A stretch of 64,000 nucleotides of DNA from Roseimaritima multifibrata. GTDB taxonomy: Bacteria > Planctomycetota > Planctomycetia > Pirellulales > Pirellulaceae. Positions 30,372-61,222 of the stretch are shown here, piece after piece. Within the stretch, counting starts at the first letter, position 1. Every line of letters starts with the position of its first letter. The position numbers were made by a program, and so were the translations under genes. The stretch covers positions 6,510,001 to 6,574,000 of the forward strand of contig NZ_CP036262.1 of assembly GCF_007741495.1 (NCBI RefSeq), read 5' to 3'. The notes beneath the pieces are model-generated. The model saw only the letters and a program-made list of their open reading frames with translations, searched no databases and was not told the DNA's origin.

Positions 30372-30535
30372 CTTGATGCCAGCGAGGGACGTGAAATCGA
30401 TTCGTGACCTCCTGTCGGTCTGCCCACGCGCTGGCGAGCATAGCGACGGGACTGCCGCAACTACCGTCGCAAGAGGGTGGCCCCCGCTCGGAAACCGTCA
30501 CCTATTGATTTCACGTCCCAGTCGCTCGAATCAAG
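30372..30535. repeat. Palindromic intergenic element E1 (MITE/REP-like)
   Basis: A 164-bp element with near-perfect terminal inverted repeats. The left arm (30372-30409) starts CTTGAT, contains GGGACGTGAAATC and ends GTGACC. The reverse complement of the right arm (30497-30535) has the same blocks in the same order, with about four mismatches and a 2-nt gap. The interior has CCCACGCGCTGGCGAGC and ACTACCGTCGC blocks, which recur near 33.8 and 46.7 kb. The element fills most of the 451-bp gap 30090-30540, in which I see no gene. Confidence 0.8.
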
Positions 30536-30540
30536 CCGCT

Positions 30541-31818
30541 TTAATCAACTTTTTTAAAGCCGATATCGTCGAAGTCAGCGACTCCGGTTGCTCCGAACAA
30601 TCCAATCCGCAGGATCGCTTCGCGGCTTTGAGGTGGGACACGAATCAAGCGGCTTTCCGATTTCCAGCCTCGGGTTCCGCGGAACGGCCCCAACCAAAAA
30701 GTGCCCCGTTCACGACGCAGTTCGTCGTAAAAGGTAATGGCAACAATCGGCAGACGGTCACTTCCTTCCGCGCCGACCACCGCGCGGGTTCGGACACGCC
30801 CCGACAACCGGGCCATCGTTACTTCGCGACCATCGATCGCCAATCCCTGCAATAGATGGGAATCGAGTCCTGGCGTTTCGTTCTCGAAACGGATATACGA
30901 GCCATCGCTCTCTCCAGCGGTCGACGCACTTGACCCCGAAACGATATCGGTTTCAGCGGGTACCTGATGGACCTGGCGACCGTAGTACCAGCCAGGAATA
31001 TGGATCGAAGAGTCGCCGGACTGGCTGAAATCGCCGTTGATGACTTTAGGGTTGGACGGGTCAGGCTTTTGCTGCCGACCATCTTCGGCTTCGCCAGTCA
31101 TTGGAACAAACAACGTAGGACGGAGCGGCTGCCGCTCCAGTTTCCCGTCCTTTTTGATCATCCGATAAAGAGTCTGCTGATAACGCTCGCCGACGGGGAT
31201 GATCATCTGGCCCCCTTCGCGCAACTGATCGACCAACGGCTGGGGGATCGATTCGGGAGAGCAGGTCACGATGATTTTGTCGAACGGAGCCGCTTCGGGC
31301 CAGCCTAAAAAACCATCGCCAACGCGAGCCGAAACGTTCTCGTAACCCAGTCGCTCCAGAACCTCTTTCGCCTTCTTACCCAACGGGCGGACAATTTCGA
31401 TGGTATAGACGTGTTCTACCAACGGACTGAGGACCGCCGCTTGATATCCGCTGCCGGTCCCGATTTCCAAAACTTTGTCGGTCGGCTGTGGATCAAGGGC
31501 CTCGGTCATCAAAGCCACAATAAACGGACTGCTGATCGTTTGAGCGTCTCCGATCGGCAGCGCCATATCGAAATAGGCTTTGCTGCGCTGCGAAGTGGGA
31601 ACAAATTCATGCCGAGGCGTTTCAGCGATGGAACGCAGGACCCGCGTATCGGTAACCCCCGCGGTCTGAATTCGAGTCTCAACCAGCTGTTGCCTAGCTT
31701 TCTGGAATGGATCTTCCGCCACCGCAGTACCAACTTGAATAAACGGGACAAGAAACCCAACCGAAAACACCGCAGCCAACAGAGCAGGATGAAATGAGAA
31801 TCCGAATCGTGTCGACAT
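30541..31818 (-). CDS. Exported protein-L-isoaspartate O-methyltransferase with C-terminal jelly-roll-like domain
   Basis: 425 residues from ATG 31818 (MSTRFGFSFHPALLAAVFSVGF), a signal peptide followed by AVAEDPF. Residues about 35-235 are a complete PCMT: RIQTAGVTDTRVLRSIAETPRHEFVP, LPIGDAQTISSPFIVALMTE, SAM motif VLEIGTGSGYQAAVLSPL, and post-motif VGDGFLGWPEAAPFDKIIVTCSPESIPQPL. A second domain of ~155 residues starts VINGDFSQSG and ends AILRIGLFGATGVADFDDIGF, resembling CBM4/9-type jelly rolls. PCMT repairs isoaspartyl residues using SAM, a cytosolic cofactor, so export is puzzling. Upstream ATG 31842 would add 8 residues. Confidence 0.87.
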   Translation of the reverse strand: MSTRFGFSFHPALLAAVFSVGFLVPFIQVGTAVAEDPFQKARQQLVETRIQTAGVTDTRVLRSIAETPRHEFVPTSQRSKAYFDMALPIGDAQTISSPFIVALMTEALDPQPTDKVLEIGTGSGYQAAVLSPLVEHVYTIEIVRPLGKKAKEVLERLGYENVSARVGDGFLGWPEAAPFDKIIVTCSPESIPQPLVDQLREGGQMIIPVGERYQQTLYRMIKKDGKLERQPLRPTLFVPMTGEAEDGRQQKPDPSNPKVINGDFSQSGDSSIHIPGWYYGRQVHQVPAETDIVSGSSASTAGESDGSYIRFENETPGLDSHLLQGLAIDGREVTMARLSGRVRTRAVVGAEGSDRLPIVAITFYDELRRERGTFWLGPFRGTRGWKSESRLIRVPPQSREAILRIGLFGATGVADFDDIGFKKVD

Positions 31819-32179
31819 CGACAACTCCCGCGAAAAGATCAAAGGACGACGACATCAGCAGACAACCTACTGACTTCCTTATGTTTAGGATAACCCTAGG
31901 ATGCAAGCGGGCAGAAAAGAACTTTCATCCAAAGGCCCCCGCCCCAACCGTGGGAACGACCTGACCCGTTGTACCGATTCTAGCGATTAAACCAATTGAA
32001 CAAACATCCAGCGTCTCAAACATCCAGCGACCCGAGCCGAAAACGAAAAAGACGTGCGGCAGAACATGGTCCGCCGTCCGGCGACGGCAGCGACATTGAA
32101 AGGGAGGCCGCGGCGTTGACCGGGCCATTCGATCCTCAGCCGCGCACTCACGTGCGCGGCTGTAGATTCGGTCCGTTCG
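31819..32179. other. Intergenic region without a gene
   Basis: 361 bp between the methyltransferase start and the esterase stop. It contains a short direct repeat (AACATCCAGCG twice at 32003-32030) and a perfect 11-bp hairpin next to the esterase stop. I see no credible coding sequence or tRNA. Confidence 0.6.
32137..32162 (-). terminator. GC-rich hairpin after the esterase gene
   Basis: CAGCCGCGCAC (32137-32147) pairs perfectly with GTGCGCGGCTG (32152-32162), loop TCAC. It lies 17 bp downstream of the esterase stop. It lacks a T tract, so it may be a transcript-stabilising 3' hairpin or a rho-type end. Confidence 0.55.
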
Positions 32180-33706
32180 CTAACGAGCGTCTTTGGTGAT
32201 GCCCGGCCAATCATCGGTGCGGAACGGAGTCAAAGGAAGATCGTCTTTGTTATACAAGTTGACGACCGGGTTTTCGGCCCATGCGTAGCGCACGGCAACC
32301 GGTTCCGCAACTTCACCGCTGGAAACGGCGATCCGTCCGTCTGGCAAAATCTCGGCGTCGGCCCAGACAAATTTGCGGTCTTCACCCGCGATTGAAAAAC
32401 CTCGCAGTTCGTTAACATCAAACGGACGCCAGCCAGCTCCAACCTTATCAAAGGTCAGCACGATCTGATTGCCTTCTTTTTCCATCGATGCATATCGAGG
32501 GCTTTGGTAATCCATGTCCAAACCATACTCGTTGGCCAATGCCCAACGTGCCAAGCGGCCTCCGACAATCTGCTTGTTCCGCGGATGGATGTCCTTCGCT
32601 TCACCTTTATCAATGATCACGGCTTCACCGGTGTTCGGCAATTTGTCCATGGTCATCGTTTGGGCTTCACGAAGTTCCGCCCAACTGCTGTCGCCAGGTT
32701 CGGCGACTTCAGGACGGAAATCGGCTAGCTGAACCCAGTAGAAAGGAAAATCGCCCTGTCCCCAATCGGACCGCCACTGCGAAATCATCAGAGGGAAAAG
32801 GTCACGGTACTGATAGGCACGGCCAGCATTCGATTCGCCTTGATACCAGATTGCCCCACGGATTCCGTATCCGATGTGAGACTTCAGCACTCCGTTATAG
32901 ATATTGCCTGGGTTCTGATTGCCCGGCAGAGCCCGTTTTAGATTGGTCAGGTGCTTCTCTTCGGCGTCGCTGCGATCGGTTTTCGCTTGCAGCGTCTTCG
33001 CCTGTTCTTCCATCGACTCCCAACGCTTTAGCATCGGGCCGTACATTTCAGGATTCTTGGCCAGGGTTTCGCGAGGCACCCAAGCTTCCGCAGCCGATCC
33101 GCCCCAGGCGTTGTTAACCAAGCCAATGGGAATTCCCAGCGTCTGATACAACTGACGCCCGAAGAAATAGCCAACAGCGGAGAAACTGCCGACGGTATCG
33201 GGTGAGCAAACCATCCAGTGATGAGCATCATGAGACCAAACAGCCTCTTGAGTCCCAACGCGTGGATAATTGATCATGCGAATCTGCGGGTAATTGGCGG
33301 CTGCCTTTTCCAGATCAAAATCATTGGAATTACCGACATTCCACTGCATGTTGGACTGGCCACTACAAATCCAGACTTCGCCAACCAGAATGTCTTTGAC
33401 CGTTACGGTGTTTTTACCTTGAACCGCCAGCTCAAGCGGTTCTCCGACTTTCATCGGGTCAAGGGTGACTTGCCAATTCCCTTCGGCGTCGGCGGTCGCC
33501 GCGTGCGACTGGCCACCAATCTTGACGGTCACCTGTTCGCCACTATCGGCTCGGCCCCAAACGCGATTCGGCTGATCACGCTGCAAAACCATGTGGTCCG
33601 AAAAAATATTTGGAAGCCGAACATCTGCGACGGCGTCCGAAACGACAGAGCAAGCCGCCGCAGCAGCCAGCAATAAAGAAGCAGAAAAACGCAACACTTT
33701 AGGCAT
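32180..33706 (-). CDS. Sialate O-acetylesterase family exported protein
   Basis: 508 residues from ATG 33706 (MPKVLRFSASLLLAAAAACSVV), preceded by GAGG at 9 nt. A signal peptide ends near DAVADVRLPNIFSDHMVLQRDQP, the classic start of SASA proteins. Catalytic elements: CSGQSNM (nucleophile Ser), WYQGESNAG (oxyanion/substrate loop) and KDIHPRNK (Asp-His). The C-terminal ~90 residues are a beta domain. The family removes acetyl groups from sialic acids or plant/algal polysaccharides such as xylan. It is exported, so it should act on environmental glycans. Upstream it faces the two-component pair. Confidence 0.92.
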   Translation of the reverse strand: MPKVLRFSASLLLAAAAACSVVSDAVADVRLPNIFSDHMVLQRDQPNRVWGRADSGEQVTVKIGGQSHAATADAEGNWQVTLDPMKVGEPLELAVQGKNTVTVKDILVGEVWICSGQSNMQWNVGNSNDFDLEKAAANYPQIRMINYPRVGTQEAVWSHDAHHWMVCSPDTVGSFSAVGYFFGRQLYQTLGIPIGLVNNAWGGSAAEAWVPRETLAKNPEMYGPMLKRWESMEEQAKTLQAKTDRSDAEEKHLTNLKRALPGNQNPGNIYNGVLKSHIGYGIRGAIWYQGESNAGRAYQYRDLFPLMISQWRSDWGQGDFPFYWVQLADFRPEVAEPGDSSWAELREAQTMTMDKLPNTGEAVIIDKGEAKDIHPRNKQIVGGRLARWALANEYGLDMDYQSPRYASMEKEGNQIVLTFDKVGAGWRPFDVNELRGFSIAGEDRKFVWADAEILPDGRIAVSSGEVAEPVAVRYAWAENPVVNLYNKDDLPLTPFRTDDWPGITKDAR

Positions 33707-34134
33707 GGTGGGAACCTCAGGGGGGAGAAACAGAAATATTTGAAGTCCCACAGCATACTCTTTCCAATCTCAGAAAGGGGCCTTGGAAGCAACAATCCTG
33801 CAGTGCTCGCCCCTCTTTTTCGGGCGTGAAATGCATTCGTGACGAATTATCCACGCTCTGGCCGCCACTGCCGTAGCTACCGTCGCCAGACGGTAATTCC
33901 TGCTCCATCAATTGTTCCAACGGCACCAGACGCGTCGCTGACCAGCCACCACCACTCGGAAACTTAACCAACGGGATCAAAGCCCGTTGGCAGCCAAGAT
34001 TGGTCTTGCAATTTTTACAAAAGGATTGCTAGAGTCGCTGAGCGGACTGGGGCACCGTCAGAACACGCCCCACGAAAAAACCAAAACTCTGGCACTTCGT
34101 CCGGGGATTCCACCTACAGCAGGGAGGCTCACAG
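33707..34134. other. Intergenic region with repeat fragment E2
   Basis: 428 bp between the divergent esterase and histidine kinase genes. It holds repeat E2 (33821-33895) and presumably both promoters. No coding sequence is supported. AGGGAGG at 34120-34126 is the kinase ribosome-binding site. Confidence 0.6.
33821..33895. repeat. Dispersed repeat fragment E2
   Basis: CGGGCGTGAAATGCATTCGTGAC, then CCACGCTCTGG and GCTACCGTCGCCAGACGG blocks align in order with the left half of element E1 at 30.4 kb, but the right inverted arm is missing. It looks like a truncated copy of E1. Confidence 0.65.
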
Positions 34135-35757
34135 GTGTTAGCTCGCTCACCCATTCGAACCAAACTGCTACTGGCGTTGGCGATCCTCACGGCGATCATC
34201 AGCACGCTCGCTTTCAGTGGATTCTGGGGGCTTTACCGCTATCGCAGCCTTGCCAACAACATCAACCATCGCGCCGCGGAGATCCCTCAGATCAACGCCT
34301 TGCTGCGTTCCGTAGAAACAATGCGAGACAGTTGCCGAAGGATTGAGGACGATAGTTTCAACTCGTTTAAAATCGGGCCTGATCCGATTTTATCCGAATC
34401 GATCCAACGGAGCGAAAGCGATCGCTTTGACGATGCCTTGCAAGAATTCGGGTCGGTCCTCGCACGCTACCAAGTCTCCTTGGCAGCCTCCTCATCGGAA
34501 GACAACCTCTTTCTTGATCCAGAACAACAACAGCGGTTGCTAAACCGAATCGACAAAGCACTGCAATGTGTCCGCAGCACCCAACGCCGCCAGCTGCATG
34601 ATTTGGAGGCGATTGAATTCGCAACCCTGCAGCTGGACCTGGATGCCCTTGCCGATTACACGCAACAGTTGCCATCGATGCTGCAGCGCCGAATGGCGGG
34701 CGTCCGCGACCAAGTCCGCGGCCAATACCGAACCTGGATCACGCTTGCGTGGTCTTGCACGGTCCTTGCGCTGGTAATGCTGGGAGTCCTCCTGTGGCTG
34801 TTCAAAACCCTGATCATGCAACCTTTTCAGAACCTGCTGGAGGGCTGCCGCTTGGTCGCCTGCGGGCATTTCGATCACACCATCGAACTCGGCACCGGAG
34901 ACGAATTGGACGAACTGGGCCAGGCAATGAACGGGATGACCGAACGTTTCCGCAGCACTCGAGACGGCCTGAACAGCCAAGTCCGTCAACGCACCCGCGA
35001 AGTGATCCAGCGCGAACAGTTGGCCAGTGTGGGCTTTTTGGCAGCCGGGGTCGCCCACGAAATCAACAATCCACTCGCCTCCATTGCCTGGAGTGCCGAA
35101 GCCCTTGAATCACGTCTTCACGATGTGCTGCACAGCACGACCGATGAATGCACGATCATGCGTGAAGAGGCCGAAGCCCTCAAGAAGAACCTGACCCGAA
35201 TTCAGGACGAAGCCTTTCGCTGCAAAGGGATTACCGAACGTTTGCTTGACTTCAGCCGCATGAGCAATGTCACGGTCGCGCCGACCGACCTGGGCGAACT
35301 GGTCAGCGAAGTCGTTTCGATGGTCGGCACGCTTGGGCAGTACCGCTGCAAAAGCATCCGCATTGAATGCCCAGAAACCGTCATCGCTGAAATCAACGCT
35401 CAGGAAATCCGTCAAGTGATCCTGAACCTCTTAACCAACGCGTTGGAATCGGTTCCCAGTGATGGACTGGTCATCGCCAAAGTGGAAGCGACAAACAGCC
35501 AGGCTTCCGTTAGCGTCACGGACAACGGCTGCGGCATGAGCGACGAGGTTTGCGAAAACCTTTTCGAACCCTTCTTTACCCGTCGCCAAGATGGCCGCGG
35601 AACCGGGCTCGGCCTCAGCATTACTCACCGCATCATCAGCAAACATGGCGGCGTGATCACCGCTCACAGTGACGGCGAAGGTCACGGATCACGTTTGGAA
35701 TTCAGCTTGCCTATCAACACTATGGAGCCCAATCATGTCGCGTCTCAAGTCGCCTAA
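34135..35757 (+). CDS. Sensor histidine kinase (NtrB-like)
   Basis: 540 residues from a GTG with a strong GGGAGG 8 nt upstream. Transmembrane helices at about 9-30 and 202-225 flank a ~170-residue helical sensor region; a HAMP domain follows (FKTLIMQPFQNLLEGCRLVACGHFDHTI). The phosphoacceptor is His308 in GVAHEINNPLAS, then N box NLLTNALESV, G1 DNGCGMSDEV, F box FEPFFTRR and G2 GRGTGLGLSI. An inner-membrane kinase of the HisKA/NtrB class. It is paired with a sigma-54 activator that overlaps its 3' end; the signal is unknown. Confidence 0.93.
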   Translation: MLARSPIRTKLLLALAILTAIISTLAFSGFWGLYRYRSLANNINHRAAEIPQINALLRSVETMRDSCRRIEDDSFNSFKIGPDPILSESIQRSESDRFDDALQEFGSVLARYQVSLAASSSEDNLFLDPEQQQRLLNRIDKALQCVRSTQRRQLHDLEAIEFATLQLDLDALADYTQQLPSMLQRRMAGVRDQVRGQYRTWITLAWSCTVLALVMLGVLLWLFKTLIMQPFQNLLEGCRLVACGHFDHTIELGTGDELDELGQAMNGMTERFRSTRDGLNSQVRQRTREVIQREQLASVGFLAAGVAHEINNPLASIAWSAEALESRLHDVLHSTTDECTIMREEAEALKKNLTRIQDEAFRCKGITERLLDFSRMSNVTVAPTDLGELVSEVVSMVGTLGQYRCKSIRIECPETVIAEINAQEIRQVILNLLTNALESVPSDGLVIAKVEATNSQASVSVTDNGCGMSDEVCENLFEPFFTRRQDGRGTGLGLSITHRIISKHGGVITAHSDGEGHGSRLEFSLPINTMEPNHVASQVA

Positions 35758-37123
35758 AGAAACTGCCAAGATGCGGGTCTTGTTCGCTGATGATGAAGAC
35801 AACTTGCAGGAGTTGATTCGCAGCGAAGTCCCTCGCATGGGATACAGTGTGACGGTCTGCCCCGATGGGTTAACCGCGGTCGCCGCAATGGAAAAAGAGG
35901 CCTTCGATTGCTTGATCGTCGACCTCCAGATGCCCGGCTTTACCGGTATCCAGGTGATCGAACGCGCGGCAGAACTTCAGCCCGACATGGATACGGTCAT
36001 CATGACCGGAAACCCAAGCGAAAAAACAGCGATCGAAGCGATCCAGTTGCAGGTCTTCGACTACGTCATGAAACCTTGCCGGTTGGCCGATATCGCTGGC
36101 TTGCTGGGACGGGTTTGGGAACGCCGCCAAAACCGCCGGCAGGTAGCCGCTTTGGAACATCGCGTCCGCCGAGCCGAAGGGGAAACAAAACTGATCGGGG
36201 ACCATCCGACCATGCACGAAGCAACCCGCTTGATTGAACGGGTCGCCGCCACCGACAGCACGATCCTGATTCGCGGAGAAACAGGAACGGGCAAAGAACT
36301 GGTCGCCCGCTCACTGCATGAAAAAAGCGATCGGTCCGACCAACCGTTTGTCGCGATCAACTGCGGGGCCCTGCCCGAAAACCTGATCGAAAGCGAACTG
36401 TTCGGACACAACAAAGGAGCCTTTACCGGCGCCGACGCAGCCCGTGCGGGGCTGTTTGAAATGGCCGATGGTGGAACCCTGTTCCTCGATGAAATCGGTG
36501 AACTGCCTCTTTCCATGCAGGCCAAACTTCTGCGAGTCCTGGAAACAGGGGACATCCGCCGAGTGGGCGATAACGAAACGAAGAACATCGACGTCCGCGT
36601 GGTCTGTGCGACGCACCGCGACCTAGAACAAATGGTGCATGAAGGAACCTTTCGTGAAGACCTGATGTTTCGCATCAACACTTTCGAAGTCCAAGTCCCC
36701 GCGCTGCGTGAACGTATGAGCGACCTGCCGCTACTGGCCAATCACTTACTGGCCAGATTTCGACCGGACATGAAACCGGACATGAAAGACGCGTTCGCGC
36801 CGGAAACGCTGAAACTGCTCGCCGAACATGTCTGGCCTGGAAACGTTCGGGAACTGGCAAACGTGATTGAACATGCCGCGATCCTCTGCGACGGCCTGCC
36901 GATCCTGCCGGAACACCTGCCTCGCCACTTCAGTTCCAGACAATTAAGAAAAGAGCTTCGCAGCAGCGGCCCGACCAGTTTGCGGGACATGGAAATGCAT
37001 GCGATCGAAGAAGCGTTACAGCGGCACGACGGGAATAAACCTGCAGCAGCCGCCGAACTGGGAATCAGCCTGAAGACGCTGTACAACAAACTGAACGCCG
37101 CCATCGACAGCAAAGCTGGCTAG
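35735..37123 (+). CDS. Sigma-54-dependent response regulator (NtrC family)
   Basis: 462 residues from ATG 35735, preceded by GGAG at 7 nt and overlapping the kinase stop by 23 nt. Receiver domain with acidic pair ADDED, phosphoacceptor Asp63 (IVDLQMPGF) and Lys in YVMKP. The AAA+ domain is intact: Walker A GETGTGKE, GAFTGA loop (HNKGAFTGADAARAGLFE), Walker B LFLDEIGEL and sensor WPGNVREL. C-terminal Fis-type HTH (IEEALQRHDGNKPAAAAELGISLKTLYNKL). It should activate sigma-54 promoters on phosphorylation by the neighbouring kinase. Its target genes are not evident in this window. Confidence 0.95.
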   Translation: MSRLKSPKETAKMRVLFADDEDNLQELIRSEVPRMGYSVTVCPDGLTAVAAMEKEAFDCLIVDLQMPGFTGIQVIERAAELQPDMDTVIMTGNPSEKTAIEAIQLQVFDYVMKPCRLADIAGLLGRVWERRQNRRQVAALEHRVRRAEGETKLIGDHPTMHEATRLIERVAATDSTILIRGETGTGKELVARSLHEKSDRSDQPFVAINCGALPENLIESELFGHNKGAFTGADAARAGLFEMADGGTLFLDEIGELPLSMQAKLLRVLETGDIRRVGDNETKNIDVRVVCATHRDLEQMVHEGTFREDLMFRINTFEVQVPALRERMSDLPLLANHLLARFRPDMKPDMKDAFAPETLKLLAEHVWPGNVRELANVIEHAAILCDGLPILPEHLPRHFSSRQLRKELRSSGPTSLRDMEMHAIEEALQRHDGNKPAAAAELGISLKTLYNKLNAAIDSKAG

Positions 37124-37188
37124 AGGTTCGCCAAGGTTCGTCTGCAGGGCCGCCGGTTAGACGACCTGCAGACGAAAACGCATTACCA

Positions 37189-37608
37189 TTAGATCTCAAT
37201 TTTTAGATCGGTGGTTCCTGCGGCGGGAATTTCGACCGTCAGTCCTGAGGTTTCAGGACTGGCATATTTCGCAGGCAACACCGATTTTTCGGGCTTCATT
37301 GCTGAAAAATTTTCCCGCCCCGGTTCGCCACCCGGATCCTGGACCGGGCGAACAACAAACGCCGTAAACTTGCCGACCATGGCGCCGTCGGCATCTCCGA
37401 CCGTCCCCAGCTGAAAACGCCCCTGTTCATCGGTCAGACCACGAGCGCGACGCTCTTGTCCATCCGCCGGCTGCAGAATCACCTCGTATCCTGCCAAGGG
37501 CTTTTCCTTGTAGACCAAGGTTCCCGAGGCAGGGACCAAACTCAATCCAGGGTCACTGCAACCCAGGCACATCAGTGTCACTCCTAAAATCAACGACATC
37601 CACTTCAT
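37189..37608 (-). CDS. Small lipoprotein with carboxypeptidase-regulatory-like fold
   Basis: 139 residues from ATG 37608 (MKWMSLILGVTLMCLGCSD). The lipobox is MCLGC. The mature domain has the beta pattern SGTLVYKEKPLAGYEVILQP ... RGLTDEQGRFQLGTVGDADGAMVGKF and ends VLPAKYASPETSGLTVEIPAAGTTDLKIEI. This is a transthyretin-like carrier domain common in planctomycetes directly after DUF1559 genes, as here (85 nt downstream). Function unknown. A longer frame (from 37680) adds 24 residues in front of the lipobox. Confidence 0.78.
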   Translation of the reverse strand: MKWMSLILGVTLMCLGCSDPGLSLVPASGTLVYKEKPLAGYEVILQPADGQERRARGLTDEQGRFQLGTVGDADGAMVGKFTAFVVRPVQDPGGEPGRENFSAMKPEKSVLPAKYASPETSGLTVEIPAAGTTDLKIEI

Positions 37609-37693
37609 TGCGATACCACTCTGGCTGTTAGCGATAATTTCATCAAAACATACTGGGGGCAAATACGATCCGTTTGGCAAACCCTATCTTCGC

Positions 37694-38650
37694 TTACGGA
37701 AGATTCAGGACTTCGCCTCCGTTGGCGGTTCCCAACGCCAACCAAGCTAATCCGTCGACCGTTTCCGCACCAAAAGAAACCGACCCGTCGCAACGTAGCG
37801 TCAGGACGCCCGAAGGATGAAAACTTCGAGTTGCCAAGTGCCCCGCAGCTAAGCTGGAACTGTTGATGCAATCGCGGTACCGGGAATTCGGCGTCAACGT
37901 GTGGTTGTAGAACGTCGACACGATGAGAGCTCGGTAGTACTGCATCCCGCGATAACGCCAGGCACTCGCACTTGGATCGTCGCAGGCTCCGATGTCGTAA
38001 GTCGTGTCCATCGCTGCCGTCCAACCGGAAACTCCGGTCGCGGTTTGATAGTATTCAGGAGAAGTCCGAGCATAGACGGCCAAGGAAGAACCGCTGCCTG
38101 GATAAACCCCCTTTTTGATTTCGGAAAATGCCGCGGTGTTGCTAAGTCCATCGGTGATGTCCGCAAATTTCCGAGCTTCGCCTCGAGGGAAAACGGCAGT
38201 GCGATTTGTATCCGGAGCCAAGCCACCAAAGTTCTGCATGTAACAACCGTGCCCTGCCCAGCTGAACCCTGGAGCGCTGGCTGGATGAGACGGACATTGG
38301 TAGATGTCCAGCGTTTGCCGAACCGCTGCGGAGTTAGCCGAACTGCTATTTAGATCCAAGCTGAAATCGAAAAGCTGAAAGCTGTTATTCGCTTCGATGT
38401 AAGGAAGGATCAGCGTGTGGGGCGTCGCACTGTTCGATGAAACCCCGCCCGGCGGCAGCACGCGATGAGTCGATTCGTAATTGTGCAAAGCCAAACCAAT
38501 TTGCTTTAGGTTATTGGAGCACTGCATCCGGCGAGCCGCTTCACGCGCCGCCTGGACCGCTGGCAACAGCAGCCCCACCAAGACGCCGATGATCGCAATC
38601 ACCACCAACAACTCAACCAACGTAAAACCACTTCTGCGACGACGGACCAT
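37694..38650 (-). CDS. DUF1559 pseudopilin-like protein
   Basis: 318 residues from ATG 38650 ([21 protein letters not shown]), with GGAA 9 nt upstream. The prepilin cleavage/methylation motif GFTLVELL begins the hydrophobic helix; after it comes the DUF1559 signature [36 protein letters not shown] and a C-terminal [16 protein letters not shown]. Planctomycetes carry many paralogues; they are thought to assemble or be secreted through a type II/IV pilus-like system. The frame is open a further 102 codons upstream, but that part has no resemblance to the family. Co-transcribed with the lipoprotein. Confidence 0.93.
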
Positions 38651-39719: not shown

Positions 39720-39741
39720 AAACGGCTTTCCAGCTGGAAGC

Positions 39742-43950: not shown

Positions 43951-44365
43951 CTTTCATTTCCTAGCGGAACGACGCGCGCGGCTTGTTGATTTAGTGATTG
44001 TCGCCTTCGCTCGGGACGCGAAATCAATCGATGACGATTTCAACCCTGCCCATCCGAGCCTAAGTGCAGTGCTTTTAGCCCAGCGGGCGGCAGACAAGGA
44101 TAGTTCTGTCGCCCGCTGGGCTTTCCTTTTCGTGATCCCCACTCCGGCGGCTTGCACCGCCGGCAAGTATCTGCCGCCCTCCGGGCTACCTGTTCACTCG
44201 GCCCCATGTAGGCTCGTCAACGGCTGCAAACTCTTCATTTATAGATTTCACGTCCCCCGCGAAAGAACGCTCCCTTAGAGCTAATTTCGCGTCCCGAGCG
44301 AGAGGCGACAATCTTTCTTAGGTTTCGATTAAATCAACAAGCCGCTTGCACCGTTCCGTCAAGAG
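43951..44365. repeat. Inverted-repeat-bracketed intergenic element E3 (MITE-like)
   Basis: The left arm (43951-44036) carries TAGCGGAACGACGC, GGCTTGTTGATTTA, GTGATTGTCGCC and CGCTCGGGACGCGAAATC. The reverse complement of the right arm (44284-44360) has the same blocks in the same order (ACGGAACGGTGC, GGCTTGTTGATTTA, GATTGTCGCC, CGCTCGGGACGCGAAAT), with an AATCGAAACCTAAGAAA insertion. The left arm is also about 93% identical over ~60 bp to the reverse complement of 54594-54658. The interior includes a GGGACGTGAAATC block (44251-44264, reverse), as in E1. Confidence 0.78.
44077..44130 (+). terminator. Long hairpin plus T-rich tail inside E3
   Basis: An 18-bp stem with one mismatch: AGCCCAGCGGGCGGCAGA (44077-44094) with TCTGTCGCCCGCTGGGCT (44105-44122), 10-nt loop, followed by TTCCTTTT. 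It looks like a plus-strand terminator, yet no plus-strand gene precedes it, so it may belong to the mobile repeat instead. Confidence 0.6.
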
Positions 44366-46694: not shown

Positions 46695-46736
46695 GGCCTG
46701 CCCACGCTCTGGCGAGCGTGATTGCGGCGACTACCC
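46695..46736. repeat. Dispersed repeat fragment E4 overlapping a stop codon
   Basis: CTGCCCACGCTCTGGCGAGCGTGA and GCGGCGACTACC blocks match the interior of E1 (CTGCCCACGCGCTGGCGAGC, GCCGCAACTACC) and E2. The TAG stop of the DUF1844 gene (46731-46733) lies within it, so insertion could have trimmed or extended that protein's end. Confidence 0.6.
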
Positions 46737-47171: not shown

Positions 47172-48926
<1,755 letters not shown>

Positions 48927-51003: not shown

Positions 51004-51019
51004 TCGCCGACGGCCCGGA

Positions 51020-52699: not shown

Positions 52700-52762
52700 C
52701 CTGAGTTTCCTCGCAGCAGTTAATGATTGCCGACAACGCGCGATACAACAGCTATTATCGGC

Positions 52763-54013: not shown

Positions 54014-54673
54014 AACGATCCTCCAATTTCAAAACGAACGACAATCTCACCTCCATTCTACGATCCACAGCCCCTGAGGGTTCGAATCGGAGAAGGGAGA
54101 AGGCGAAGCCCTCGCGAGCTGGCGGTTAAAGGCGTCGGTTATATGGATTTAGGCGTATTTCGAGGGTTTGGTATCGACGCCTGTCTTGCAAAGCAAGATC
54201 GCCCTACAGGGCATCGCGAGAATCGCATTCCTAGCGGATCGACGCGATCCGACCGGCAAACACACAACAGGTTCCAGGGCGAGGGTTTGCGGTTTATTGA
54301 TTTAATCGAAAGCGGAGAAAGTTTGTAGCCTTACGCTCCGCGAAAGTAGCTTTCAGGGAGCGTTCTTTCGCAGATCGAGCAGAATAAGCAAAGAAAACCT
54401 GTCGTTTTTCGCGCAGCAAAAAGAATAAACAAAGAAAACCTGGCTCCCCTCGCCCTCAAAACAAGCTCGCTTAAAACAGGTTTGATATTGAAACAACGGT
54501 TCGTCAGCCAGTTCAATGGACTGCGAATCAATAGCTTGTTTTGGGGGAGAGGGGCTGGGGGGCGAGGGGAGCCAGATTTTTGTCTGTCGTCTTTCACGGA
54601 GCGAAAGGCGACAATCACTAAATCAACAAGCCGCTTGCGCCGTTCCGCTAAGAAATGTGGATGAACCTGGGCG
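54014..54673. other. Long intergenic region with element E5
   Basis: 660 bp with no supported gene. 54061-54285 shows no family resemblance in any frame. 54286-54658 is a repeat element with a nested inverted repeat. It separates the DUF1573 and O-antigen ligase genes. Confidence 0.7.
54286..54658. repeat. Inverted-repeat-bracketed element E5 with nested hairpin
   Basis: The left arm (54286-54371) has GCGGTTTATTGATTTAATCG, AGCGGAGAAAG, CGCGAAAGTAGCTTT and GGGAGCGTTCTTTCGC. The right arm (54594-54658), reversed, has TAGCGGAACGGCGC, GGCTTGTTGATTTA, GTGATTGTCGCCTTTCGCTCC. Nested inside is a second inverted repeat: CTGGCTCCCCTCGCCC (54440-54455) and AAAACAAGCT (54458-54467) against AGCTTGTTTT (54533-54542) and GGGCGAGGGGAGCCAG (54560-54575). 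The left arm recurs at 61.1 kb and, reversed, in the right end of E3. Confidence 0.78.
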
Positions 54674-57016
54674 TTACGACTTCAGCAGCTCGGCTGCGGT
54701 TTTCTGCTCCGGTTTGGCCTGGACCGCTTCGCTCAAGACCTCCACCGAGAGAATATTGACCCGCGTTAGCTCCCTTTCGATATGCCCACCGGCGGCTGCC
54801 AACGTTTCGGCTCGTTCCTTCCATTCAGCGGCTTGCGGGTCCTGTTCGGCCATCAGGATCACTGCGATTTGAGCCGCCAAACGCTCGCTGACCGGCGCCA
54901 ATTCAGCAGCTCTCAAGTAAAGCAGCTTTGCTTCCTGCAGGTCCGCGGGATCGCCCCAGCGTTGATATAAATGCAGATACATGGCGGCAAGTCGACTGAT
55001 CAGCGAGGGATCTCGCGGTGCCTTGTTCGCAGCCGCTTCGGTTGCGGCTGCAAACCGTTCACGCAATGCCTGATTCGATTCCGCCATTAGCACCTGTCGA
55101 TACAGGTCGGCCAAAGCCACTTCCAAAGCAGGGTCCCAGGCGTCCGCTTCAATCGCCCGCCGATAATTCGCTTCAGCTCGATCGATCCGGAGTGCCGTGA
55201 TCGCCTCGGTACTCCACCGCTGTGCTTCGGTGACAGGACGCATGCCCGAATAGAAATAGGCGACCAACATTCCCAATCCGACAGCGCCAACCGTCCAACG
55301 CAGACGATAAAAAACGAGCGACCTTTGGGGCCGTTTTTCCGACTCCCGTTCCAAGCCCTGTTCAGGCTCGACCGCGTTCCCTGCCAACAATCCCCCTGCC
55401 AACAACCAAAACGGAATCGCCGCCCCCGGAATCGTCCACCCACTGGAGAGCATCCAGTGAATCAGGAGACCGGAAACCGCACCGATCAATGCATTGCGTG
55501 GGAGCGTCCCCTTTCCCAACCAATTCCAGACCAATGCGACCACCAACCCTCCGAGCGGCCATCCCCACAGCTGCGCATCAACGTCGGGAAAACGCCCGAT
55601 CAACGCTCCCAAGAACCAGACAACCAAAACACCACAACCATACCCAACCAACAACGGCCGTCCATCCACAACCGCTAGGGCTGGCGGGCCAACAAGCGGA
55701 AGGGAAACAGGTTCCGCGGACGACTGCAACGCCTGCGGCGTCCGCGATCCAACGAAGACCCAATAGACGCATAAAACAACCAAGACGACCAGCAACAACA
55801 CCGCGGGGATGCCTCCCGCGGCAGCCGTTTCCATCCACAGGTTATGCGGTTCGGCAACCTGTTCACTGGCGTCCATTGCCCGCACGTTTTCATAAGCCGA
55901 TTGAAAGTTCCCCGGTCCACACCCGAACCAAGGGGACTGCTGCACAAGCGAAATCGTCCCGCGCCAGTACTGCATCCGAAAAGCAACAGAAGCGGTCGCT
56001 CGTTCCATGATTTCACGGTTACTAGCCACGTACGCGACCAGCAGCGATCCGACCACGACCGCCGCGGCCAGGATCCCTTTCCAAGGGACCGCAAACGCCT
56101 GCGGAGCCGACTTGTTATCGCTTGCCGGCTTTCCGCCATCCCGGCTTAGTACGCTATAGATCGCCCAGGCAACCGCTACGATCAAAACCGCCAAAACCGC
56201 CGACCGACTGTTCGTCCGCAGCAATAAAGTCCCGATCAAAAAAGCGGCGATTGCGAATCCGAATCGTTCTCGCATCGCCAGCCGACGCCACTCTCCGACC
56301 AAAATCCCCAGCGTCAACAACAACGCGGGAACCAACAGACCGGCCAGAGTATTACTCAACGCGAACGTCGCGATCGGGCCACCGTCACGCAAACGGTTTT
56401 CAAAATTCATACGTTGGGCCGATCCGGGAGGGGCCTCGATGCCGACCATCCTCAGAACGCCATCGGGATCCATTGCATACTGCGCTCGATCGGCGGGAAA
56501 ACTGACCAGCAGCTGATGCCAACCATGCACGGCCAATAAACAGGCGGACAGGATGACCAGCAGGACAACCGTCCGCTGAGCCGCCCCGGCGGCGAACAAT
56601 CGCCTAGCCGACGTGAAGCAGGCGGCGCCCGCAACCCACAGCCACCATTCGTTCACCGCCGCTCGCAAATTCAAAACGTCCTGCAACGCATACAGGCTGA
56701 CTCCGATCCACAGCGCCAATCCCCAGGCCGCCAAATCGATCCCCCAGCCGCGAAGCGAAAGCGAACCGGACCGCAAACGAGTGAGCCCTGCACCGGGGAC
56801 CGGGATTGCCAGCCAGGCTAAGATCGCCGCGATGATCGCCAGCCCGCAGAAGTAAATCGCTTCCCCCATTTCAACCGCAACGCTATCGGCCGGCCAGAAG
56901 GTCGCCAACGCCAACAACATGGCCAATAAGCCAGCAGACAACGACGCCAGCAATGGCCAGCGAAATTGATTTTGAGCCTGCCCTGCCCGCGGTTTTACAG
57001 ATCGTTTTTTCGCCAT
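54674..57016 (-). CDS. O-antigen ligase/polymerase-like membrane protein with TPR-like tail
   Basis: 780 residues from ATG 57016 (MAKKRSVKPRAG), overlapping the WecA-like stop by 22 nt. About ten or more hydrophobic helices; the Wzy/WaaL-type periplasmic loop is visible: ASVAFRMQYWRGTISLVQQSPWFGCGPGNFQSAYENVRAMDASEQVAEPHNLWMETAAAGG (Arg and His positions typical of WaaL/Wzy). The last ~190 residues are helical TPR-like (ITALRIDRAEANYRRAIEADAWDPALEVALADLYRQVL). It should polymerise or ligate polysaccharide chains on lipid carriers at the outer face of the inner membrane. Confidence 0.85.
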   Translation of the reverse strand: MAKKRSVKPRAGQAQNQFRWPLLASLSAGLLAMLLALATFWPADSVAVEMGEAIYFCGLAIIAAILAWLAIPVPGAGLTRLRSGSLSLRGWGIDLAAWGLALWIGVSLYALQDVLNLRAAVNEWWLWVAGAACFTSARRLFAAGAAQRTVVLLVILSACLLAVHGWHQLLVSFPADRAQYAMDPDGVLRMVGIEAPPGSAQRMNFENRLRDGGPIATFALSNTLAGLLVPALLLTLGILVGEWRRLAMRERFGFAIAAFLIGTLLLRTNSRSAVLAVLIVAVAWAIYSVLSRDGGKPASDNKSAPQAFAVPWKGILAAAVVVGSLLVAYVASNREIMERATASVAFRMQYWRGTISLVQQSPWFGCGPGNFQSAYENVRAMDASEQVAEPHNLWMETAAAGGIPAVLLLVVLVVLCVYWVFVGSRTPQALQSSAEPVSLPLVGPPALAVVDGRPLLVGYGCGVLVVWFLGALIGRFPDVDAQLWGWPLGGLVVALVWNWLGKGTLPRNALIGAVSGLLIHWMLSSGWTIPGAAIPFWLLAGGLLAGNAVEPEQGLERESEKRPQRSLVFYRLRWTVGAVGLGMLVAYFYSGMRPVTEAQRWSTEAITALRIDRAEANYRRAIEADAWDPALEVALADLYRQVLMAESNQALRERFAAATEAAANKAPRDPSLISRLAAMYLHLYQRWGDPADLQEAKLLYLRAAELAPVSERLAAQIAVILMAEQDPQAAEWKERAETLAAAGGHIERELTRVNILSVEVLSEAVQAKPEQKTAAELLKS

Positions 57017-58191
57017 CCGGTTGATTCCAAAATCACGATCAGAGTCAGCATGCACAACACAATCCCCACCAGCAAAAGCGAACCGGCGGGAGTCACAAAG
57101 GCCAACAGTATCGCTGCCAAGCCACAGGTTAAAGTTAGTAAATGAATGGTTAATACGGCTTGGATTTTACTAAGTCCCAAATCGACTAAGCGATGAGAGA
57201 AATGACTTTTATCCCCTTCGAAAGGGCTTCGTCCTTCGCGAATTCGGATCCATAAGACCGTCGACATGTCGTACAGCGGGACGGCCATCACACACAGCGG
57301 AGCCAACACGGCGTGTGGTCGTGAACTTTCCTGATACCCAGCGTACGTCGCCAGCAAAGTTGCCACGGCTACCAAAAAACCGACAAGGTAGCTGCCGGAA
57401 TCTCCCATGAAGATTTTTGCAGGAGGCCGATTGTGCCACAAAAAACCGACCAGAGCTCCTGAAACCACGAACAACAGCCCAGCCACCAACAACTGAGGCT
57501 GCCCCGAATCGGGATCGGGCGTCAGCAACATCACGATTCCCAACATCCCAGCGACAATCGCCGCCACCCCGCCGCTGAGCGCGTCCATGTTGTCAAGCAT
57601 ATTAAACGAATTGATCAACGCGACGATCCATATCACCGACAACAGCTTGGTCAGCCAGGGAATGGGAATAAAAGCCGTCAAACTGTATCCCAGTCCAAAC
57701 ACCACGGCCGCCGCGACCCCTGCCTGGACCGCCAATCGAAACCAAGCGGAAAGCCCGCGACGGTCATCGACCAATCCCAGCACAGCCAACACCGTGCCAG
57801 CGAACAGCACCCCCCACAATTCGCCACTGCGGCTCCAAACCCCATCCAGCGAATCGACAACCGAAGGAGGCAAATAGGCGGCAAGCGAAGGCCATTGAAG
57901 GCAAGCCCAAACGATCGCGGTCCCCAGCCCAAAAGTCCCTACGACCGCAAACCAGATCCCTATCCCGCCCCCCAAAGGCGTTGGCACCGTGTGAACCTTG
58001 CGATGCCCAGGACGATCCAGCAAACCCAGCCTCTCCGCCCAGCGACGAACAGGAAACAGAACCAAGCAAGCGAGCACCGCAGCTGGAACAAACGTGGCAA
58101 ACACCAACAACCAGATCGGTGACAGCTCTTTCAAGACGAGTTCTTTCAGACAAGGCAAGCGACAGATAAGCGACAGAGAGGTGCACAACAT
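56995..58191 (-). CDS. WecA/MraY-family polyprenyl-phosphate sugar-1-phosphate transferase
   Basis: 398 residues from ATG 58191; the frame is open to 58365, and other starts (for example a TTG near 58146) are possible, so the N-terminus is uncertain. About eleven helices. Catalytic loops: VDDRRGLSAWFRLAVQ, NSFNMLDNMDALSGG (D-D-type motif with Ala in place of Gly), WHNRPPAKIFMGDSGSYLVGF and the His-rich SHFSHRLVDLGLSKIQA. It transfers a sugar 1-phosphate (GlcNAc-like) to undecaprenyl phosphate to start glycan synthesis. Overlap with the ligase-like gene indicates a two-gene polysaccharide unit. Confidence 0.87.
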   Translation of the reverse strand: MLCTSLSLICRLPCLKELVLKELSPIWLLVFATFVPAAVLACLVLFPVRRWAERLGLLDRPGHRKVHTVPTPLGGGIGIWFAVVGTFGLGTAIVWACLQWPSLAAYLPPSVVDSLDGVWSRSGELWGVLFAGTVLAVLGLVDDRRGLSAWFRLAVQAGVAAAVVFGLGYSLTAFIPIPWLTKLLSVIWIVALINSFNMLDNMDALSGGVAAIVAGMLGIVMLLTPDPDSGQPQLLVAGLLFVVSGALVGFLWHNRPPAKIFMGDSGSYLVGFLVAVATLLATYAGYQESSRPHAVLAPLCVMAVPLYDMSTVLWIRIREGRSPFEGDKSHFSHRLVDLGLSKIQAVLTIHLLTLTCGLAAILLAFVTPAGSLLLVGIVLCMLTLIVILESTGWRKNDL

Positions 58192-58447
58192 ACCACCCCC
58201 TGCCCCGCTTCTCCAGACTTCCAAACGCCCAGAGCGATCCCCCGCGGAAGAAAACGTCGTTGGATTCTCCGGATCGATAGCGTCCGAAAAATCGAGCACG
58301 AATCGCCCTCTACCTCTGCGGGGTTGTCGCGGAGTCTTCTCAATCGGATATTGAGGGGCTCGCAATCGCGTAAATTTGCATTGAATGGCATCCCGCTCCG
58401 CGGTCGCTTGCCAGTCGTTATTCCCCTTCTCTACGAGCCCGTTCGCT

Positions 58448-59767
58448 ATGAGTGCTTTTCCAGACGTCGATACGATTCAGTACGAAGGCCCCGACAGCGA
58501 CAACCCACTAGCGTTTCGCTGGTACAACCCTGACGAAATGGTCGAAGGCAAATCGATGCGCGACCACCTTCGATTCTCGGTCGTCTACTGGCACACCTTC
58601 CGCGGAACGGGCTCCGACCCGTTTGGCCCTGGAACGGCGGTTCGCCCTTGGGATGACGGAACCGATTCGGTCGACAATGCGTTAAAGCGAGTCGATGTCG
58701 CCTTTGAATTTTTCCAGAAACTCCAAGCCCCCTACTACGCCTTCCACGATCGTGACGTTTCGCCCGAAGGTTCCAACCTTGCCGAATCCCACAAGAACTT
58801 CGATCGCCTAGCACAGGCTCTAAAAGACCAGCAACAAGCAACCGGCGTGAAACTGCTCTGGGGCACCTGCAACCTCTTTAGTCACCCTCGTTATATGCAC
58901 GGGGCCGCAACCACCTGCAACGCAGACGTGTTTGCTTATGCCGCTTCGGAAGTCAAAAAATGCCTCGAAATCACCAACGATCTTGGTGGTGAAAACTATG
59001 TGTTCTGGGGTGGCCGCGAAGGTTATCAGAACCTTTACAACACCGACATGAAACGTGAACTGGATAACCTGGGACGCTTCCTTCATATGGCCGTCGATCA
59101 CGCCAAAAAGATCGGATTCACCGGTCAGTTCCTGATCGAACCCAAACCCAAAGAACCGACCAAGCATCAGTACGACAGCGATGCCGCAGCCTGCTTGAAC
59201 TTCCTTCGCGCCTACGGCCTGGAAGATCATTTCAAACTGAACATCGAAACGAACCACGCCACGCTGGCCGGTCATACGATGATGCATGAACTCGATTACG
59301 CGGGGATGCAAAACGCCCTGGGCAGTATCGACGCCAACACCGGCGACCTGTTGCTGGGCTGGGACACCGACCAGTTCCCCACCGATTACTACCAAACCGC
59401 CCAAGCGATGTGGATGATTTTGAAGCATGGCGGACTGGGATCGGGTGGAGTCAACTTTGACGCCAAGGTCCGCCGAGAAAGCTTCGAACCGATCGACCTG
59501 TTCTATGCCCACATCGGCGGCATGGACGCGTTCGCCAAAGGACTGAAAATCGCCGCCGCGATCCGAGCCGACGGACAGATGCAGTCCTTCGTCAAAGACC
59601 GCTACGCAAGCTGGGATAGCGGAATCGGAGCGAAAATCGAAGCGGGCCAAGTCGGCTTGGAAGAACTGCAAGCCTACATGCTGGAAAAGGGCCAAAGCGA
59701 CGCCAACACCAGCGGCCGCCAAGAGATGTTAGAAAACGTCTTTAACCGCTACATCGACCGCGTCTAA
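58448..59767 (+). CDS. xylA: Xylose isomerase
   Basis: 439 residues from ATG 58448 ([30 protein letters not shown]), exactly the group II XylA length; the frame to 58385 adds 21 residues. Active-site His100 and Asp103 in [13 protein letters not shown], the substrate/metal loop [49 protein letters not shown] and [18 protein letters not shown]. It converts D-xylose to D-xylulose (also glucose/fructose). Divergent from the WecA-like gene; no xylulokinase is adjacent, so xylB must be elsewhere. Confidence 0.97.
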
Positions 59768-60194
59768 AACCTGGCTCGAAGGCATGCCGGCTGTTGATTT
59801 TATCCAGTCGGCATCCACATTCTTAACGGTACGGCGCAAGCCGCGCTGGCCACTAAATTCTTGGCGGTACGGCACAAGCCGTCCGGCCCTCCGTCCGGCC
59901 CTCCCGCGCACTTGCCGGTCGGCTCGCGCCGATCCGCAAAGAAAAAACGGCCGCAAGGTGCCACAGCAGGTAACATTGGGACATCGCCATCGACTTACAT
60001 TTTTAGCGGTACGGCGCGAGCCGTCCGGCCCTCCGCCCTGCCCCCCCGCGCACTTGCCGGTCGGCTCACGCCGATCCGCCAAGAAAACCATGCGCAAGGT
60101 GTCACATGCGGTGGCGGAGCCGCAGACGAAAATGTCATCTTTGGAAAGATGTCCATTCTTTCTTTTCCGCTTTTTCATTCGAGAACTCTTCGAT
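59768..60194. other. Intergenic region made of direct repeats
   Basis: 427 bp between xylA and the peroxiredoxin-like gene, filled mostly by the repeat at 59825-60104. The frame of the next gene is open back to 59784 through these repeats, which I treat as non-coding. A promoter for the next gene should lie between about 60105 and 60190. Confidence 0.65.
59825..60104 (+). repeat. Direct intergenic repeat, two full copies and one partial
   Basis: Copies at 59858-59964 and 60000-60104 share GCGGTACGGC, AGCCGTCCGGCCCTCCG, CCGCGCACTTGCCGGTCGGCT, GCCGATCCGC, AAGAAAA and CGCAAGGTG blocks; a third copy at 59825-59850 has only the start (ACGGTACGGCGCAAGCCG). Spacers between copies share a CATC-AC--T motif. 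No coding function is apparent although one frame happens to stay open. Confidence 0.85.
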
Positions 60195-60938
60195 ATGTCA
60201 TTCCGCCCCTCTCTGGCCTGCCTGCTTTCGGTTGCCATGCTTAGTTCAACGTCCTTCGGCGTCGAGCCTCCCAACAACGATGGCCCGCAAACGCCATCCC
60301 TTTCACAACAACTGACCGAAAAAGCGGGAGAAGCAATCAAACGATACCCGCCAGAAGCGTTGGCGAAAATGAAATCGGCGGTCGATTCGGTCCGGGAAAC
60401 AGGTATCGAAAAATCGGCCAAACAGGTGGGTGACAAAGCGATCGACGCCAAACTTTCGGGCTGGGACGGAAGTTCGGTTCAACTGAGCGAACTATGGAAA
60501 GAAGGGCCTGTCGTCCTGATGTGGTATCGCGGCGGATGGTGCCCCTACTGCAATCTTCAATTGCGGGCGATGCAGAATGAACTAGGTGCGTTGGAATCGA
60601 CGGGAGCCAAACTGGTGGTACTGACCCCCGAATTGCCCGCGAACGCCAAAAAGACAGCCGAATCGAACGACCTGGGAATTGTCGCACTCCATGATTCCAA
60701 AAATGAAATTGCGAAAAAATACGGCGTCGTTTTTGACCTTCCAGAATCGATTTTGCCAATCTATCGCGACCGCCTGAAACTGGGTGAAGTCAACGGCAGC
60801 GATGCGATGGAACTGCCTCTCTCGGCGACCTACGTCATCGATACCGATGGAGTGATTCGATATGCGTACCTAAACGCCGACTACAAGCAACGCCCCGAGC
60901 CATCGGAAATTATCAACTTCATCAAAACGCTGAAGTAA
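60195..60938 (+). CDS. Exported AhpC/TSA peroxiredoxin-like (thioredoxin-fold) protein
   Basis: 247 residues from ATG 60195 (MSFRPSLACLLSVAMLSSTSFGVE, a signal peptide). A helical stretch (30-85) is followed by the thioredoxin fold: LMWYRGGWCPYCNLQLRAMQNELGALESTGAKLVVLTPELP. The Cys116-Pro-Tyr-Cys119 pair replaces the single-Cys TxxC peroxiredoxin motif. It ends SATYVIDTDGVIRYAYLNADYKQRPEPSEIINFI. It may reduce peroxides or disulfides in the periplasm. No partner gene is adjacent; hairpin-rich DNA follows. Confidence 0.85.
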   Translation: MSFRPSLACLLSVAMLSSTSFGVEPPNNDGPQTPSLSQQLTEKAGEAIKRYPPEALAKMKSAVDSVRETGIEKSAKQVGDKAIDAKLSGWDGSSVQLSELWKEGPVVLMWYRGGWCPYCNLQLRAMQNELGALESTGAKLVVLTPELPANAKKTAESNDLGIVALHDSKNEIAKKYGVVFDLPESILPIYRDRLKLGEVNGSDAMELPLSATYVIDTDGVIRYAYLNADYKQRPEPSEIINFIKTLK

Positions 60939-61085
60939 CGGTCGCAAGATATCACGTCGCCCGTCGCAAGATTGTCGCACTTCGCTCGAAACGTGCGATT
61001 TATAAGTTGGCGGCTTCCTAGCGAATCGCAATAGATGGAAGAGACCAAAATCCCAACCCGTCCAAAAATCGCAACATCAAAATGC

Positions 61086-61128
61086 GTAAGCGAGGGATAG
61101 CGGCCTGCTCTTTCGGTCCCTCGCTTAC
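61086..61128. terminator. 12-bp perfect hairpin between convergent genes
   Basis: GTAAGCGAGGGA (61086-61097) pairs exactly with TCCCTCGCTTAC (61117-61128) around a 19-nt loop. There is no long T tract; it sits between convergent genes and could act as a bidirectional terminator or belong to repeat E6. Confidence 0.5.
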
Positions 61129-61130
61129 CG

Positions 61131-61222
61131 GGCTGCCGATTAAATCGAAAGCGGAGAAAGATTGTAACCTTTCGCTACGCGAAAGTAGCTTTAAGAGAGC
61201 GTTCTTTTGCGGAGCGATAGGC
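61131..61222. repeat. Dispersed repeat E6 (copy of the E5 left arm)
   Basis: GATTAAATCGAAAGCGGAGAAAG, CGCGAAAGTAGCTTT, GAGCGTTCTTTTGCGGAGCG and GGCGACA blocks match 54296-54372 of E5 in the same order with few mismatches over ~80 bp, and the reverse complement of 44251-44345 in E3. It is a solo arm with no inverted partner nearby. Confidence 0.8.

Follow-up and report, generated by a model that had tools for sequence, protein, structure and literature searches.

REPINs are inverted pairs of repetitive extragenic palindromic (REP) sequences that form a hairpin, and they are usually regarded as depending on one REP-associated tyrosine transposase (RAYT). We analyzed a 64,000-nucleotide stretch of Roseimaritima multifibrata DNA (the window, positions 6510001-6574000 of the single 7216590-base contig of the genome coded G000) and found in it a short repeated element, family A, that is of two types at once: IS1182-type ends and 4-bp target duplications, as in a miniature inverted-repeat transposable element (MITE), surround a REPIN core. 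Judged from sequence features, the element is likely a chimera, a 118-bp MITE of the IS1182 family of insertion sequences (IS) that carries a REPIN and is putatively moved in trans by a transposase of that family.

Palindromic targets are described for some members of the IS1182 family in the available text of PMC5678879, where IS1272 replaces its target stem-loop and leaves no duplication, and where duplication of the loop is drawn as one pathway. Family A resembles the IS1182 family (IS1272, its relatives and their MITEs) in that the transposase of its full-length partner matches model NF033551, but it differs from IS1272 as portrayed in that text in its 4-bp duplications and in the REPIN within its short copies. 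With the REPINs and RAYTs of Bertels and Rainey 2011 (PMC3116915, in the portion available), it shares an inverted REP pair, a hairpin and a tie to Y1 transposase genes; unlike those REPINs, it has a GTCG foot, and in the window genome the pair lies within DDE-type ends with target duplications, with no cognate RAYT found. The available portion of PMC3733652 describes the GTAG and CGTC REP superfamilies, short tagged stem-loops like ours that include Planctomycetes; its main text holds no word beginning GTCG. The foot of our core is GTCG and not that of the GTAG superfamily, although GTAG is a left-half variant in many window-genome copies. According to that portion, CGTC REPs lack a dedicated transposase, whereas the GTCG REP described here has a RAYT clade. 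The same text links RAYTs to longer terminal inverted repeats (TIRs), a further likeness; however, unlike in the RAYT-within-TIR genes it describes, the TIRs here belong to an IS1182 element, and the REPIN is all that they enclose. Our literature search, which covered titles and abstract openings and lay mostly outside subscription journals, found no report of an IS1182-ended MITE with interchangeable REPIN cores, or of such a family in Planctomycetes.

The original prediction had taken six loci of the window, described as sharing several sequence blocks, for a single non-autonomous mobile family of MITE or REP type. The blocks do occur at these places far above chance, but they are not one shared set: at least three families are mixed, and a single family for all six loci is rejected. 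For three loci (44, 54 and 61 kb) the prediction of a mobile family stands, with both types present at once. The blocks GGCTTGTTGATTTA, AGCGGAGAAAG, CGCGAAAGTAGCTTT and GGGAGCGTTCTTTCGC belong to one element, family A (44.2, 54.3 and 61.1 kb). As proposed, all six loci land in gaps between open reading frames (ORFs) taken as genes, 9 of 11 scanned flanking ORFs carrying Pfam domains; shorter mechanical ORFs overlap some of the loci.

An intact family A element measures 118 bp and consists of CGGSYTGTYGATTTA, a left-arm spacer of ~20 bp, an inverted pair of GTCGCCTTTCGCTCCGCGAAAG, and then TAAATCRACARSCCG (18 copies were aligned and 70 window-genome loci read). The left REP half often reads GTAGCC. 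The core comprises two inverted REPs that form a hairpin, which is what defines a REPIN, and the pair spans about 60-66 bp (this length and that of the spacer by eye). Inverted arms had been thought to bracket 150-400 bp in several copies; the two longest such loci, at 44 and 54 kb, are instead the 118-bp element swollen by other internal repeats. The copies in the window and their contents are as follows.

43979..44344, minus strand: REPIN-cored MITE copy 1, swollen, with TIRs at 43979-43993 and 44330-44344 (covariance match 6554225-6554347)

44013-44256: GGGACGTG-ended element with family B ends, inside MITE copy 1

44078-44186: family-D repeat pair, inside MITE copy 1

54290..54633, plus strand: REPIN-cored MITE copy 2, with TIRs at 54290-54304 and 54619-54633 and flanking 4-mers TTTG/CTTG, 3 of 4 bases alike

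54325-54346 (plus strand) and 54591-54612 (minus strand): REP halves of MITE copy 2

54434..54569, plus strand: repeat F (CTGGCTCCCCTCGCCC...), ~137 bp, with inverted arms, inside MITE copy 2 and splitting its right REP half

61129..61246, plus strand: REPIN-cored MITE copy 3, with left TIR at 61129-61143, the right end worn away and no duplication remaining

61164-61185 (plus strand) and 61204-61225 (minus strand): REP halves of MITE copy 3

The element is short, dispersed and multicopy: its TIR pattern (≤1 mismatch) occurs at 110 places in the genome versus 5 for the reversed control, and the 22-mer REP (≤2 mismatches) at 161 places versus 0. A blastn query with window positions 54289-54378 gave 44 genome matches at E≤1 (40 of 185 first-look candidates scored), and a covariance model built from 18 copies gave 142 at the same threshold (150 of 2768 candidates scored), a figure that counts some places on both strands and thus is not a count of places. 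The original prediction was to be dropped if its blocks were not enriched over chance in the genome; they are enriched. Folded as single-stranded DNA and compared with shuffled sequence, a clean copy (L007) reached a z of -10.5 and the worn 61-kb window copy a z of -3.1. Individual copies break many of the base pairs, and few two-sided changes preserve one, the pattern of mobile copies in decay.

A DDE transposon is marked by direct 4-bp repeats immediately at its ends, and such repeats flank family A copies in the window genome, where a search for target-site duplications had been suggested. Both ends are kept in 22 of the 70 loci (≤5 and ≤6 arm mismatches), and across these 22 the 4-bp flanks agree at 54 of 88 positions (27.7 expected), an agreement reached in 0 of 5000 and 0 of 20000 permutations of swapped flanks. 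With similar flanks removed, 52 of 80 positions are identical (26.0 expected, 0/20000 permutations). Flank lengths of 2, 3, 5 and 6 are at chance in the same 22 copies. Exact 4-bp duplications are present in four copies (GACA, TGAC, TTCA and CGAG; 0.22 expected). Looser end cut-offs gave 57/96 identities for 24 copies and 66/128 for 32 copies, both 0/5000; in the 32-copy set, flank lengths 2 and 8 also reached 0.038 and 0.025.

The full-length partner of these elements was found among the TIR places listed from the genome search, as three identical 1795-bp elements with the 15-bp ends of the MITE (3016358-3018152, 4618300-4620094 and 6173498-6175292; L320-L322). It encodes an IS1182-family transposase (NCBIfam NF033551, 312.8 bits, cut-off 270), and a protein search at E≤0.001 found no fourth copy in the window genome. 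Each of the three is flanked by a perfect 4-bp duplication (GTAA, TTAC and GTCA), the same length as that of the MITE. Since the 15-bp ends and the 4-bp duplications are common to the short element and the 1795-bp IS, the former is a MITE and was probably moved by such a transposase. A transposase with matching ends had been anticipated, with IS200/IS605 or RAYT types as examples; the one found is a DDE enzyme of the IS1182 family and not a RAYT, though a RAYT clade accompanies the core. Each of the three IS copies occupies precisely the four-base loop of a hairpin like those of family D, with the loop duplicated and 8, 7 and 8 of 8 stem bases paired (the test asks for ≥6 of 8 paired, for which the background probability is 0.5%). 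These copies (3/3) are natural evidence of an IS1182 element duplicating exactly the loop of its hairpin target, a route that the available text of PMC5678879 drew only as a possibility.

The REP of the core is widespread. Of 30 genomes, 12 contain its 22-mer (≤2 mismatches) and none contains the reversed control, and the exact 22-mer is present in at least 120 stretches of named genomes, all 80 of the titles shown being planctomycetes. In the relatives' loci that were read, matches of the covariance model consist of the hairpin pair, with no outer ends seen (three loci near contig ends were unread). In genome G014 a Y1 gene has a REP pair on each side, at 17 and 14 bp from its coding match. 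Homologues of this gene were sought in 60 genomes, 25 of which gave a match, and 26 of the 46 protein matches were scanned for adjoining repeats. The five best-scoring RAYT homologues (in G014, G009, G033, G002 and G018) adjoin GTCG-footed REPs with apex GCTCCGC, the 22-mer being exact in three and altered in the stem in two; none of the 21 remaining homologues scanned has such a REP within 5 mismatches. The RAYTs of G009 and G033 were found by protein alone, and in G033 the REPs stand on one side only. Together with three further such RAYTs, from loci chosen by REP presence, the eight REP-adjoining RAYTs form one clade (support 86/93). It was also observed that the 22-base REP is identical in planctomycetes of several orders (by titles; L186-L265), while its neighboring RAYTs in G014, G009 and G033 share only 55-60% identity.

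The core thus adjoins RAYT genes in other genomes and not in the window genome, where no close member of the clade was found and the best homologues (37% and 33%) adjoin other repeats. A window-genome RAYT was rejected as the mobilizer: eight Y1_Tnp genes (Pfam) and one more found by protein search adjoin other repeats or none visible. We read this as the absence or loss of the REPIN's own RAYT from the window genome. Separately, two RAYT genes of this genome (L036 and L037, 6488815-6489925) are a tandem duplication with GTAGGCCGGATCAAGGAGCGAAGCG repeats between and around them, and another Y1 gene (L032, 7107148) is embedded in family-D repeats (GCCCGGAGGGCGACAGA), with no GTAG foot seen.

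REPs with a TIR within 75 bp make up 4 of 13 matches in a 400-kb sample of the window genome, compared with a chance rate of ~4% (estimated from a density of 103 loose TIR matches per 400 kb). The corresponding counts are 0/20 in G001, 0/12 in G009 and 0/10 in G014 (the last from overlapping loci, L074 and L156, so that some are counted twice), and 5/191 for matches in loci of named genomes. Because the REP has no TIR nearby in G001 and G009, the same REP is bare there, in genomes whose MITEs hold another core. The gene pair around the 54-kb copy is 660 bp apart in the window genome, ~115 bp in G001 and 326 bp in G002 (tblastn ends), and neither of the latter gaps holds the REP (≤4 mismatches). 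Conservation at orthologous positions, which the original prediction had named as telling against it, was therefore not seen at the one gap tested (54.3 kb); this is a single locus in distant relatives, at which an exact empty site is unreadable.

Elements of 116-119 bp with the same ends, 4-bp duplications and other palindromic cores are found in two other genera and one congener (three of the relatives' genomes belong to the genus of the window genome). The end pattern occurs at 495 places in G016, 77 in G001 and 53 in G009, and in the stretches fetched the element length is 116-119 bp in 25 of 26, 10 of 11 and 10 of 10 cases, respectively (45/47). Exact 4-bp duplications, counted over elements of 115-120 bp (which leaves aside one element each in G016 and G001), flank 12/25 in G016, 6/10 in G001 and 6/10 in G009, with 4.5, 0.7 and 2.1 expected, and the G001 signal is kept after thinning by shared flanks (8/20000 permutations). 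The palindrome center is off the middle in nearly all elements; as orientation was set by the offset, only its size is informative. The core of G001 and G009 is GCCGTTTGGGCG(T/A)TAGCCCCGG, and G016 has two kinds, GATGGACTTCCTAGTCCGTC and GAGCCG..GCGGCCGGGT (G016-II). In a comparison confined to consensus rows of majority length, the window core resembles the two G016 cores no better than shuffled sequence does (128/200 and 101/200 shuffles scored as high), while the 15-bp ends beat all 200. A resident RAYT-like Y1 gene (23.9 bits against Pfam Y1_Tnp, cut-off 23) has around it repeats that differ from the G016-II core by 2-3 mismatches, and it sits in a tandem array of REP pairs with a 94-bp period (L404, G016 C20:86000-88200; 17 copies, the 22-mer searched in one orientation throughout); no TIR was found in that stretch. 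Another G016 RAYT has repeats around it that differ from the first G016 core at 2-4 of 20 positions. Since scaffolds of the same length hold other REPIN-like cores in related genomes, the core seems to be exchangeable cargo.

On these grounds, movement of family A would begin with binding of the transposase to the CGGSYTGTYGATTTA ends and excision of the short element, which would be joined to its target by staggered cuts 4 bp apart, with gap repair leaving the 4-bp duplication. The REP GTCGCCTTTCGCTCCGCGAAAG was probably spread as single-stranded DNA hairpins by the RAYT clade in other genera; in the window genome, where no such RAYT was found, the REP copies inside the MITE would still be portable by the IS1182 enzyme in trans. 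The REPIN may have entered through RAYT-mediated insertion into a MITE or through capture between two IS ends, and the narrow length range may reflect a requirement of the transposase or common descent. We tentatively propose, as a possibility that falls somewhat short of even, a vehicle built from two systems, in which a scaffold of IS1182 type and almost constant length (116-119 bp, with an off-center palindrome) is loaded with different RAYT-type REPINs in each lineage, so that a REPIN could outlive its own transposase under another enzyme and cores could be exchanged between scaffolds, the alternative to such swapping being that each core was built anew. Some genera hold this REP bare, next to RAYTs, and the window genome, where that RAYT was not found, holds it enclosed in DDE-type ends with target duplications; if the proposal is true, hairpin repeats can switch mobilizer, which would help account for REP families without a transposase.

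Several observations weigh against a MITE moved by this transposase with a RAYT-linked core. The MITE copies have diverged and in part decayed (at the cut-off one or both ends are missing from 48 of the 70 loci, which were left out of the duplication test), whereas those of the IS are identical, so that this IS may have arrived late rather than having moved the MITEs. Hairpin-loop insertion was seen in 0 of 22 window-genome MITE copies versus all three IS copies (≥6 of 8 paired). It occurs for MITEs of relatives in 3/10 (G001), 3/25 and 1/10 cases; as a general rule of MITE targeting it is unsupported in the window genome, and we treat it as a feature of the IS copies there and not as a strict feature of the IS1182 family. 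A flank length of 8 is near the border in the duplication test (0.058). In the sampled REPs of the window genome, 9 of 13 have no TIR within 75 bp. The fork of the RAYT clade lies under the tool's starred support, a RAYT of the clade is present in only four (G002, G009, G014 and G018) of the 12 REP-bearing genomes, and none was found in G001 (202 REPs) or G017 (55 REPs), both draft genomes. As to the scaffold, length constancy in G016 is partly selected, since 7 of 20 stretches were chosen for paired ends (the other 13 hold 15 elements of 116-118 bp). Many G016 copies share one target; once thinned to 9 elements, the G016 set no longer shows a duplication signal (3874/20000), and the 5 elements left in G009 show a weak one (1999/20000). 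The window core is weakly above the shuffled level against G001 and G009 (14/200 and 7/200), and the G016-II core is related to the G001/G009 core (71%, 0/200); these two relationships leave three core groups and not five. No RAYT was found beside the G001/G009 core in 12 Y1 stretches.

Some of these points would suit a plain REPIN family moved by a RAYT, in which the outer arms are simply longer parts of the REPIN hairpin. The tie between the core REP and the RAYT clade, the good folding of the inverted pairs and the end-less 9 of 13 REPs are all consistent with it. However, Y1 single-strand transposition would not be expected to leave a direct 4-bp duplication precisely where the outer arms end, these ends equal those of the IS1182 element, the REP has no nearby TIR in three other genomes, and the window genome yielded no cognate RAYT; we therefore regard this explanation as unlikely. 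A second alternative, an ordinary MITE whose palindromic middle is required by the IS1182 transposase or comes from subterminal IS sequence, would make the likeness to RAYT-linked REPs a coincidence or a case of reverse descent, with REPs as fossils of MITE cores. By sequence reading, the right end of the IS read inwards is CTTAGTGATTTTGGCGTTTTGCG where the MITE has TTTAGTGATTGTCGCCTTTCGC, and the narrow length range suggests a constraint. The wide occurrence of the exact 22-mer in named genomes, with a TIR nearby in so few of the 191 matches, and its position next to RAYT genes in several genera argue in the other direction, and we consider an ordinary MITE improbable.

A structured regulatory or RNA element, kept by selection at fixed positions, would explain the strong hairpins and the small number of pair-preserving two-sided changes (columns 12/121 and 55/94, for example). 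Such an element is very improbable given the 4-bp duplications, and a conserved regulatory RNA was rejected on the lack of an Rfam match, the many pairs broken in copies, and the one tested orthologous gap without the REP in two congeners. The chimeric MITE with a REPIN core thus remains the reading that we favor.

The loci of the window outside family A hold a GGGACGTG-ended element (family B), often within REP loops, and a CACGCTCTGGCGAGCGTG REP. The block GGGACGTGAAATC marks the second element, at 30.4 kb and nested in the 44-kb copy, with a weak likeness at 33.8 kb by eye; the block CCACGCTCTGGCGAGC is a third repeat, at 30.4 and 46.7 kb, with a broken form at 33.8 kb by eye. The remaining repeats are the following.

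30386..30519, plus strand: family B, GGGACGTG-ended element with 23-bp inverted ends, 87% complementary

30424..30443, plus strand: family E REP (CCACGCTCTGGCGAGCGTGG type; CCACGCTCTGGCGAGC hairpin), within the family B element

33823..33895, plus strand: worn fragment like a family B end, then a broken family E repeat (by eye only, under the cut-offs used)

46702..46721, plus strand: solo family E REP

54228..54259, plus strand: family C hairpin repeat (TAGCGG..CGACGCGATCCGACCGG), adjoining MITE copy 2

Family B lies between two REP halves in 16 of 40 B pairs (some of which appear to be chance matches in genes; chance is ~0.005 per position for one half), so that REP loops are common landing sites for family B. 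No tRNA or Rfam family was found in the window, with 0 Rfam matches at gathering score. Family C 12-mers are the most frequent in a 464-kb genome sample, and a cluster of family-C hairpins, in which a 92-bp sequence is directly repeated 142 bp apart, occupies window positions 59817-60087, upstream of the part of ORF 59784-60938 that encodes its AhpC/TSA domain. Repeat F is abundant in the congener G002, where 25 of 31 matches cover 54434-54569. Finally, window positions 4651-4804 hold minisatellites with 8- and 14-base units (CACTCCTT and CAACCAACAACCAA), and the genome sample has other short tandem families.

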